This document shows, one piece after another, positions 38,993 to 41,796 of a stretch of 64,000 bases of DNA. Under the pieces are notes generated by a model. It saw only the letters and a program-made list of their open reading frames with translations. It was not told the DNA's origin and did no database searches. The stretch lies in the NCBI RefSeq assembly GCF_009711045.1, contig NZ_WMJX01000006.1:62001-126000 (forward strand), written 5' to 3'. How positions within the stretch are numbered: the stretch's first letter is position 1; every line of letters starts with the position of its first letter. Source of the DNA: Myroides albus. Lineage in GTDB: Bacteria > Bacteroidota > Bacteroidia > Flavobacteriales > Flavobacteriaceae. The position numbers and the translations under genes were made by a program.

Positions 38993-39289
38993 TTAATCTT
39001 CGTCGTCGGCAATTTCCAAGTCTTTCAATGCATCTAATGAGTCTTCTGAAGGATCTACATAATCTTCTTCTTCATCGTCAAAATTCTCAATTCTATCTGC
39101 TAACTTAGTACTTACTTTTACCAGGTAAATAGTATCCTCAGTTCTTACTTCAACTGCTTCTACAGTTTCGTTTTTAACGTTTTTAAAACGAATAATATCT
39201 GAATCGTCATACCCGTCAGGAAACTTTTCCACTAATAGTGTCAAGATTTCGTTCGTTAACTTTGCGTAATCAACAATTACTCTTTTCAT
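38993..39289 (-). CDS. Small acidic protein, conserved in flavobacteria, function unknown
   Basis: This 98-residue cytoplasmic protein has a compact mixed domain at 1-68 (KRVIVDYAKLTNEILTLLVE, FPDGYDDSDIIRFKN, VEVRTEDTIYLVKVS). The tail is extremely acidic, with some fifteen Asp/Glu in the last 30 residues. I recognise the sequence type from related flavobacteria, where it is called hypothetical, but know no function. It has a textbook promoter and its own terminator, so it is expressed independently. The acidic tail would suit a nucleic-acid mimic, a chaperone contact or a solubility tail, all of them speculative. Confidence 0.7.
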   Translation of the reverse strand: MKRVIVDYAKLTNEILTLLVEKFPDGYDDSDIIRFKNVKNETVEAVEVRTEDTIYLVKVSTKLADRIENFDDEEEDYVDPSEDSLDALKDLEIADDED

Positions 39290-39384: not shown

Positions 39385-40359
39385 TTAATTACCAAGAATA
39401 TAAGCGAAAATTAATGGCGCAACGATTGTAGCATCTGACTCCACAATGAATTTTGGCGTGTCGATATCCAATTTACCCCAAGTAATTTTCTCATTAGGAA
39501 CTGCTCCTGAATACGATCCGTAAGATGTAGTAGAATCTGAGATTTGGCAGAAGTATGACCAGAAAGGTACATCTTCCCACTCTAAATCTTGATACATCAT
39601 CGGAACCACACAGATAGGGAAATCTCCAGAGATACCTCCTCCAATTTGGAAGAATCCTACTCCGTGTCCTCCTGAGTTAGCTCTATACCACTCTGTTAAA
39701 TAAATCATGTACTCAATACCTGTTTTTACAGTGTGTACATTTAGTTTTCCTTTGATTACATTAGATGTAAAGATGTTACCACAAGTTGAATCTTCCCATC
39801 CTGGACATACGATTGGAATATTTTTCTCAGCCGCAGCGATAATCCAAGAGTGTTTAGGATCGATCTCATAGTATTGCTCTAATACACCAGAGTTTACTAA
39901 TTGGTATAAATATTCGTGTGGGAAATAGCGTTTTCCTTCAGCTTCAGCTGCATGCCATACGTCTTCCAAGTGTTTTTGTAAACGACGGAATGCCTCTTCT
40001 TCAGGAATACATGTGTCTGTCACACGGTTATAGTGGTTATCTAATAACTCTCTCTCTTGCTCTGGAGTCAAATCTCTATAGTTTGGAACTCTTTTGTAGT
40101 GAGAGTGAGCAACCAAGTTCATCACGTCCTCTTCTAAGTTAGCTCCTGTACAAGAAATGATATGTACTTTATCTTGACGAATCATTTCTGCTAAAGAAAT
40201 CCCTAACTCTGCAGTACTCATAGCACCTCCCATAGAGATTAACATTTTACCTCCTGCGTTTAAGTGTGCTTCATACCCTTTTGCTGCATCTACTAAAGCT
40301 GCTGCATTAAAGTGTCTGTAGTTATGCTCAATAAACTGACTAATTGGTCCTTTACTCAT
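39385..40359 (-). CDS. Deoxyhypusine synthase-like protein (polyamine aminobutyltransferase family)
   Basis: A 324-residue member of the deoxyhypusine synthase fold. The catalytic lysine is kept: Lys296 in TWGK, matching the WGK lysine (329) of human DHS. The NAD-binding glycine block HGVGFFQIGGG is at 232-242, and a second is near 41-49 (SMGGAMST). Bacteria have no eIF5A, so the acceptor must be something else. Plant relatives of this fold make homospermidine, so a polyamine or agmatine acceptor is likely but not provable here. It lies 39 bases behind an arginine decarboxylase on the same strand, with no terminator between, supporting a shared polyamine pathway. Start ATG at 40359. Confidence 0.85.
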   Translation of the reverse strand: MSKGPISQFIEHNYRHFNAAALVDAAKGYEAHLNAGGKMLISMGGAMSTAELGISLAEMIRQDKVHIISCTGANLEEDVMNLVAHSHYKRVPNYRDLTPEQERELLDNHYNRVTDTCIPEEEAFRRLQKHLEDVWHAAEAEGKRYFPHEYLYQLVNSGVLEQYYEIDPKHSWIIAAAEKNIPIVCPGWEDSTCGNIFTSNVIKGKLNVHTVKTGIEYMIYLTEWYRANSGGHGVGFFQIGGGISGDFPICVVPMMYQDLEWEDVPFWSYFCQISDSTTSYGSYSGAVPNEKITWGKLDIDTPKFIVESDATIVAPLIFAYILGN

Positions 40360-40398
40360 TTTATTATTACTTTTATATATTAATATTTATTTTAATTC

Positions 40399-41796
40399 TT
40401 ATTTGTTATACCCCAAGATATTCAACACTTGCTCTGCTGTCTGTTGTTCTGAGAACAATTCTGTTGCGATAATTCCATTCTCATCTTTGTCAATTAAGAT
40501 GTGTTTTGGTTGTGGAATCAAACAGTGGTGAATACCACCAAATCCTCCAATTTGATCTTGATAAGCTCCTGTATTAAAGAAACCAATATACAATGGTTTT
40601 TCTTTATTGTACTTAGGCAAGTAAATAGCGTTCAAGTTTTGCTCAGAATTGTAGTAATCATCGCTATCACAAGTCAATCCACCCAACAAAATACGCTCAT
40701 AAGTATCATTCCATCTGTTGATTGGCAACATGATAAAACGCTTGTTAATCGCCCATGAATCAGGTAAAGTAGTAATGAATGAAGAATCAATCATATTCCA
40801 CTTCTCTCTGTCATTTTGCTGTTTTTGATATAAGATCTCATAGATTGCTCCTCCACTTTCTCCTACTGTGTATGAACCAAACTCTGTAAAGATGTTCGGT
40901 ACAGGCACTTCAGCTTCATCACACACAATCTTAATTTGATTGATAATCTCATCTACCATATATTGGTAATCAAACTCAAATGCCAAAGAATCTTTAATCG
41001 GAAAACCTCCACCGATATTCAAACTATCTAATGTAGGACATTCTTTCTTTAAAGTAATGTAAACTTTTAGACATTTCACTAATTCGTTCCAATAGTACGC
41101 CGTATCTCTAATACCCGTATTGATAAAGAAGTGAAGCATTTTAAGCTCTACATTTGGATTCTCAGCTATTTGCTTTCTGTAAAAAGGTAAGATACTCTTA
41201 TATCCAATCCCTAAACGCGATGTATAGAACTCAAACTTAGGTGACTCCTCAGACGCGATACGGATACCAATCTTAAACTTCTTATTGATTTGCTCTTGTA
41301 ATAGATCTAATTCTTCGTAGTTATCAATAATAGGAATAGTATTCTCGTGTTTATTATTGATTAAATTGGCAATATTATCAATATACTGCGCGCGTTTAAA
41401 CCCATTACACAACACATAAGTATCTTTGTTAATCTTACCTGTTTCCAATAAGTTTTCAACAATATTAACGTCAAAAGCAGAAGAAGTCTCTACATGAATA
41501 TCATTCTTAAACGCTTCGTTTAATACATAAGAGAAGTGAGAACTCTTTGTACAATAACAGTAATAGTAATTTGCTTTATACTTATTCTTCTCCATTGCTT
41601 TTCTAAAGATCGTCTTTACATTGCTAATGTTTTCAGAGATTTTAGGTAAATAAGTAAATTTCAATGGAGTACCGTATTTTTCAACGAGTCCTAATAAATC
41701 AATATTGTGAAACTGAAGGTTATCTTTGTTTAATTTGAATTCTTCTTGTGGAAAGTAAAAAGTTTGGTTGATTAAGTCAACATATTTTGTGTTCAT
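40399..41796 (-). CDS. speA: Arginine decarboxylase (PLP-dependent, fold III)
   Basis: Decarboxylates arginine to agmatine, the first step of polyamine synthesis from arginine. The 465-residue protein has the alanine-racemase-like barrel, with the PLP lysine probably Lys84 in YCTKSS. It also has the phosphate-binding glycines in LNIGGGFPI (about 264), and the interface cysteine motif CDSDD (about 375) that completes the partner's active site. It is much shorter than E. coli SpeA (about 630-660), lacking the long insert, which is normal for the Bacteroidota type. Ornithine or diaminopimelate decarboxylase are alternatives; the sequence resembles flavobacterial arginine decarboxylases as I know them. 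It forms an operon with the DHS-like gene, with no agmatinase gene between. A long leader precedes it. Confidence 0.85.
   Translation of the reverse strand: MNTKYVDLINQTFYFPQEEFKLNKDNLQFHNIDLLGLVEKYGTPLKFTYLPKISENISNVKTIFRKAMEKNKYKANYYYCYCTKSSHFSYVLNEAFKNDIHVETSSAFDVNIVENLLETGKINKDTYVLCNGFKRAQYIDNIANLINNKHENTIPIIDNYEELDLLQEQINKKFKIGIRIASEESPKFEFYTSRLGIGYKSILPFYRKQIAENPNVELKMLHFFINTGIRDTAYYWNELVKCLKVYITLKKECPTLDSLNIGGGFPIKDSLAFEFDYQYMVDEIINQIKIVCDEAEVPVPNIFTEFGSYTVGESGGAIYEILYQKQQNDREKWNMIDSSFITTLPDSWAINKRFIMLPINRWNDTYERILLGGLTCDSDDYYNSEQNLNAIYLPKYNKEKPLYIGFFNTGAYQDQIGGFGGIHHCLIPQPKHILIDKDENGIIATELFSEQQTAEQVLNILGYNK

Follow-up and report, generated by a model that had tools for sequence, protein, structure and literature searches.

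The stretch of DNA analysed here, hereafter the window, covers 64,000 nt of Myroides albus (contig NZ_WMJX01000006.1, positions 62,001 to 126,000) and belongs to a draft genome of 3.55 Mb in 152 contigs, 99.96% complete. On its minus strand, a gene for an arginine decarboxylase-like protein (ADC) is followed 39 nt downstream by a gene for a homologue of deoxyhypusine synthase (DHS), which we call DHS1 (Table 1). The original prediction had described a two-gene minus-strand unit in which the catalytic Lys296 of DHS is retained, and in both respects it was borne out. ADC and DHS lie side by side in all 39 genomes of the genus whose DHS locus was inspected, hence their adjacency is far beyond chance.

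Table 1. Predicted genes at the ADC-DHS1 locus; positions are those of the window.
Feature	Length (aa)	Positions	Strand	Basis and remarks
ADC-like gene	465	40399-41796	minus	Open reading frame list; predicted to convert arginine to agmatine
DHS1, DHS-like gene	324	39385-40359	minus	PF01916; predicted NAD-dependent homospermidine synthase, SpeY-like
Acidic open reading frame, conserved	98	38993-39289	minus	Directly 3' of DHS1; membership in the unit uncertain

The two enzymes of the cluster

The ADC matches PF02784 with 50.3 bits (cut-off 23.4), and the solved structures nearest to it are biosynthetic arginine decarboxylases (3n2o, E 4e-24). Its LPDSWxI and TCDSD stretches align with those of the biosynthetic enzyme SpeA, from which it differs in being 465 aa long against model lengths of 624-636, and in falling below the SpeA equivalog cut-offs (NF003763, 163.7 of 369 bits; TIGR01273, 151.2 of 624.1 bits). 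We infer that it is a short arginine decarboxylase of the SpeA / alanine-racemase fold, which would form agmatine from arginine.

DHS1 passes the curated cut-off of the Pfam family DS (PF01916; 138.8 bits against 27), a family present in 61 of 61 genus genomes, in one of them as a fragment at a contig end. Its nearest named relatives come from two Myroides strains at 93% identity, records of its own genome possibly having been left out. The structure model of DHS1 has a fold like that of solved deoxyhypusine synthases (best Foldseek E value about 1e-10, 16-19% identity); its mean predicted local distance difference test (pLDDT) score is 77.7, it is poor at residues 276-296, and the pocket was not interpreted from it. 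Lys296, in the context TWGK, aligns with human Lys329 and is kept in 171 of 171 distinct DHS sequences of the family, and Trp294 and Glu290, the equivalents of human Trp327 and Glu323, are also conserved. It should be noted that the 171 sequences come from fetched loci with 202 DHS places, many of them close kin or the same gene seen twice, and that one DHS fragment of 165 aa was excluded from the residue comparison. In fold and in these three residues DHS1 resembles the deoxyhypusine synthases of eukaryotes and archaea; it differs from them in its spermidine site, discussed below, and in having no known protein substrate.

The step from agmatine to putrescine

A DHS homologue was found in 99 of 149 genomes of the Flavobacteriaceae. 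In other genera than that of the window an agmatinase-type gene comes next after ADC in most cases inspected, and 28 of 30 DHS loci show the order ADC, agmatinase-type gene, DHS. One of the two exceptions (L027) is without the middle gene and the other (L032) ends before ADC; a longer stretch of the latter genome (L158) holds all three genes. An agmatinase-type match lies upstream of DHS, on the same strand and within 3 kb, at no fewer than 92 of 100 DHS places, a lower bound as a subset of rows was used, and one of the 92 (G061) has an internal stop. At least 88 of these matches lie within 206 nt of DHS, and one operonic agmatinase-type protein passes the NCBIfam agmatinase cut-off (227.9 against 174.3 bits). 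No operonic agmatinase was found between ADC and DHS in the 39 genus genomes (31 drawn plus 8 more). As it is absent at these loci and common elsewhere in the family, the genus of the window has lost the operonic agmatinase from the cluster.

The original prediction noted the missing agmatinase, which is correct for the cluster and incorrect for the genome as a whole. The window's genome has three arginase-family genes (C76, C2 and C35), none of them in the ADC-DHS cluster. The C76 gene, named after its contig, encodes 361 aa and lies between genes for kynureninase and kynurenine monooxygenase. Its protein is closest among solved structures to agmatinases and carries the metal motifs GGDHS, HFDAHMD and FDID, visible both in its translation and when it is aligned with the solved agmatinase 7lol; GGDH, DAHxD and DxD are the ligand motifs for the two metals. 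Neither of the other two genes was retained as an agmatinase, C2 being HutG-like and located beside an imidazolonepropionase-like (hutI-like) gene, and C35 missing the metal motifs and being located after topA. With the unlinked, agmatinase-like C76 gene at hand, the notion of a genome devoid of agmatinase was abandoned.

Among the 31 drawn genus genomes, 14 (the window's included) have a C76-type gene, 64-100% identical over 357-361 aa, and the other 17 have an agmatine deiminase; no genome has both (Fisher test, 3.8e-9, uncorrected for kinship). G164 was not counted as a deiminase genome, its sole match being weak (95.9 bits) and 24.5% identical to the deiminase of G173. An AguB-type amidase (N-carbamoylputrescine amidase, at least 190 bits) accompanies the deiminase in 16 of the 17 genomes; the exception is G178, whose draft assembly has about 590 contigs. 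In the deiminase genomes, the main remaining arginase-family genes were also checked for the C76 type. The genes of about 320-344 aa in other genomes of the genus look like arginases: eight in deiminase genomes share 75-100% identity with a protein above the NCBIfam arginase cut-off (230.6 against 227.6 bits), and two more distant ones end just short of it (224.2 and 219.2 bits). Two further genes in deiminase genomes, G156 and G152, are not C76-type (about 25% identical to the other types).

The two solutions can be seen at one and the same locus. In G161 (L275) and G168 (L276) the order is kynureninase, C76-type gene, kynurenine monooxygenase, with one extra gene between in G161. In G173 (L274), which falls with these two on the ADC tree (support 81/99, branch not starred), the order at the same locus is kynureninase, one gene, aguB, aguA, kynurenine monooxygenase. 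Judged from gene order, one agmatine route has here been exchanged for another at the same site. In G165, aguA and aguB lie elsewhere, and its kynurenine locus has neither the C76-type gene nor aguB-aguA.

Full-length relatives of C76 are rare outside the genus. Among the matches listed from the 149 family genomes, G002 (46-47% identical) is the sole standout besides the window's own genome, the remaining ones being partial and 24-41% identical. The G002 relative (L281:5662-9114) adjoins genes for a carboxynorspermidine synthase-like protein (395.5 of 800 bits) and a carboxynorspermidine decarboxylase (506 bits against 409), a neighbourhood that ties the C76 family to polyamines. G002 also carries an operonic agmatinase-type gene, and the relative itself may be a ureohydrolase that acts on a different guanidino-amine, for instance aminopropylagmatine, an intermediate described in PMC11999265.

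Substrate and product of DHS1

We consider it highly probable that the pair supplies the first and last steps of a pathway from arginine through agmatine and putrescine to homospermidine, with DHS1 working on putrescine with nicotinamide adenine dinucleotide (NAD). Substrates, products and mechanism are what we infer here from the sequences, as follows. The 465-aa ADC would decarboxylate arginine to agmatine, and the unlinked C76 enzyme would hydrolyse agmatine to putrescine. DHS1 would then oxidise one putrescine with NAD, bind the aminobutyl moiety to Lys296 as an imine, and hand it to a second putrescine to give homospermidine, as in SpeY. Putrescine is preferred over agmatine as the substrate because differing ways of making putrescine replace each other in the genus and DHS stays.

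SpeY is a DHS homologue that makes homospermidine in bacteria and clusters with speB (PMC9992855, PMC10407285). DHS1 resembles the SpeY proteins of Anabaena, SAR11 and others in DHS homology, in the catalytic lysine, in the clustering of its gene family with ADC and SpeB genes, and in its predicted role as homospermidine synthase. The product fits the family, as homospermidine is described as the major polyamine in all members of Flavobacteriaceae (PMC3072086), and in one of two Flavobacterium species measured it reached 27.3 umol/g against 0.7 for putrescine and 0.2 for spermidine (PMC8570120). Two routes to spermidine are described in PMC10407285, SpeD/SpeE and carboxyspermidine dehydrogenase/decarboxylase. 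Neither is complete in the window's genome, since it has no SpeD and no fold-III decarboxylase besides LysA and ADC, and therefore no carboxyspermidine decarboxylase. No NCBIfam carboxynorspermidine synthase was found among the scanned saccharopine-dehydrogenase-type matches of this genome, which comprise a 447-aa protein with no NCBIfam match and two others that by eye are glutamyl-tRNA reductase and UDP-glucose dehydrogenase.

Although the triamine to be expected is homospermidine, small homologues of SpeD (AdoMet_dc; open frames of 121-158 aa) occur in 6 of the 31 genus genomes (at L191, L192 and four other places). Some homologues of SpeD decarboxylate arginine or ornithine (PMC10407285).

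Several observations weigh against the putrescine pathway. DHS1 stays far below the cut-offs of the NCBIfam models NF001980 'homospermidine biosynthesis protein' (104.6 of 450 bits), the deoxyhypusine synthase equivalog (104 of 364 bits) and the caldomycin synthase NF002699 (86.3 of 500 bits), and likewise below that of TIGR00321, deoxyhypusine synthase proper (85.8 of 304.25 bits). As the NF001980 cut-off is missed, we describe DHS1 as working like SpeY and do not file it under that family. In the alignment, the human spermidine-site residues Asp243, His288 and Asp316 are replaced by Asn195, Asp246 and Tyr283, each of them invariant in the 171 distinct sequences, hence the pocket does not reveal which substrate is preferred; these residues also set DHS1 apart from SpeY. 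Residue numbers of the human enzyme were obtained by counting positions in the alignment, and His288 is taken to belong to its spermidine site. Asp243 and Asp316 are named in PMC10981699. The C76 protein reaches 159.7 of 174.3 bits with the agmatinase model TIGR01230, just below the cut-off and the best of its models, so that both genes on the way from arginine to putrescine are below their equivalog cut-offs. Its substrate may moreover be another guanidino-amine, given the carboxynorspermidine genes beside the G002 relative and the operonic agmatinase in that same genome. The exchange has its irregularities: G164 has a C76-type gene together with an AguB-type amidase, which none of the remaining 13 C76-type genomes has, and in G151 the deiminase and amidase are accompanied by a third type of agmatinase (L118:5036-5827, 263 aa, 218.1 against 174.3 bits). 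On the ADC tree about 3 changes are needed (bootstrap 2-4), the well-supported branches force only one, and an independent-pairs test had too few changes for significance. Finally, the absence of spermidine routes covers SpeD, fold-III decarboxylases and saccharopine-dehydrogenase-type matches; SpeE and ornithine decarboxylase of the other fold were not searched.

DHS1 might instead couple two agmatines to caldomycin (1,9-bis(guanidino)-5-azanonane), from which the unlinked ureohydrolase would remove both guanidino groups to leave homospermidine. In Thermus thermophilus the DHS homologue CdmS and the ureohydrolase TtSpeBap do so (PMC10981699), hence the chemistry of joining agmatines with a DHS homologue has a precedent. 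Like CdmS, DHS1 belongs to the DHS homologues, shares its genome with a ureohydrolase and would serve a route to homospermidine; ADC and DHS1 are adjacent with no agmatinase between them, and a C76-type protein could act after coupling, its G002 relative lying beside other triamine genes. Human Asp243 and Asp316 are replaced in both, by Phe and Leu in CdmS (PMC10981699) and by Asn195 and Tyr283 in DHS1, which thus lacks the CdmS pair. The caldomycin synthase model also scores DHS1 lower than the homospermidine model does, both far below their cut-offs. Further, the deiminase genomes (17 of 31, 16 of them with AguB) have the same DHS family with the same pocket residues, and to our knowledge the deiminase and AguB pair acts on agmatine and not on caldomycin. 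Agmatine as donor or acceptor, as suggested in the original prediction, is known chemistry that is not needed here, and it fits poorly because of these 17 genomes. We regard agmatine coupling by DHS1 as unlikely; it is possible most of all in the genomes with a ureohydrolase.

The fold of DHS1, being that of deoxyhypusine synthase, could also speak for transfer of the aminobutyl group to a lysine of a protein such as elongation factor P (EF-P). The EF-P of this genome, its sole match to PF08207, does have a loop lysine (KPGKGPAF), which neither supports nor excludes modification, and bacteria are not known to have eIF5A. With protein modification as the function, homospermidine, the major polyamine of the family, would have no known synthase, and the agmatinase-type match upstream of at least 92 of 100 DHS places points to polyamines. 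In bacteria, SpeY reportedly takes no part in forming deoxyhypusine (PMC9992855). A protein substrate for DHS1 thus seems scarcely credible. It is very improbable, too, that C76 belongs to kynurenine metabolism, leaving the genome with no agmatinase and agmatine as the end product of ADC. The location of C76 between two kynurenine genes suggests such a role, as does the fact that 13 of the 14 C76-type genomes, all but G164, have the gene at most 2.4 kb from kynureninase. Kynureninase is, however, present in 30 of 31 genomes irrespective of the agmatine route, so it does not need the C76 gene, and the 17 deiminase genomes yielded no gene of the C76 type. The in-place exchange for aguB-aguA in G173 and the solved agmatinases as best relatives of C76 likewise argue for an agmatine-related function.

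A second DHS copy and the downstream open reading frame

The window's genome has a second copy, DHS2 (contig C1, L036:7183-8163, minus strand), 73.6% identical to DHS1. Two copies were found in only 3 of 61 genus genomes (G000, G166 and G205), and no neighbouring protein was common to the three DHS2 loci in the compared stretches. When 22 rows from outside the DHS2 clade were compared, DHS2 of the window's genome had a different residue at 14 of their invariant positions, 11 of which fall in the stretch from residue 248 to 287. Lys296, Trp294 and Glu290 are unchanged in DHS2, as are Asn195, Asp246 and Tyr283. On the DHS tree, a long branch carries the DHS2 orthologues of G166 and G205; this tree was built without the genome's own DHS2 row, 13 of its 50 inner branches are open, and its cyanobacterial outgroup is too long. 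DHS2 is a fast-changing copy and the most open lead of this analysis. In comparison with SpeY, it is 24-27% identical to plasmid-borne cyanobacterial homologues, which are not the assayed Anabaena enzyme. One plasmid homologue, from Trichormus variabilis (L273:5905-6948), lies near an ornithine aminotransferase gene and has Phe and Leu at the sites where CdmS has them; it is a candidate agmatine coupler.

We speculate, at rather long odds, that the Bacteroidota DHS clade with Asn195, Asp246 and Tyr283 comprises homospermidine synthases with a substrate binding of their own, that DHS2 has taken up a new acceptor, and that genomes with a ureohydrolase may couple before guanidine removal. In excerpts of the open-licence literature no paper on a DHS homologue of Flavobacterium or other Bacteroidota was found.

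For the 98-aa open reading frame after DHS1, neither Pfam nor NCBIfam gave a match at E 0.01. Of the 202 fetched loci with DHS, many of them short or overlapping, 107 contain a relative, which often comes next after DHS in Flavobacteriaceae loci; among 80 named loci with relatives of DHS1 only 6 have it. As a target of lysine modification it was rejected, having no supporting evidence and missing from most named loci.

Taken together, the alternative polyamine route of the original prediction becomes a pathway already known, in which one enzyme is divergent and the middle step has been exchanged. DHS1 probably does act in polyamine metabolism, with homospermidine as its likely product, and what has to be given up is the premise that no step leads from agmatine to putrescine. 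The case also calls for caution, in that the lack of an agmatinase in a cluster is not the lack of an agmatinase. Our results suggest that the middle step is interchangeable between an operonic agmatinase, an unlinked agmatinase-like enzyme and a deiminase with an amidase, and that the DHS-like enzyme is the constant element; therefore, putrescine is predicted as its substrate. This would provide a gene-level account of homospermidine, long used as a chemical marker of the Flavobacteriaceae.

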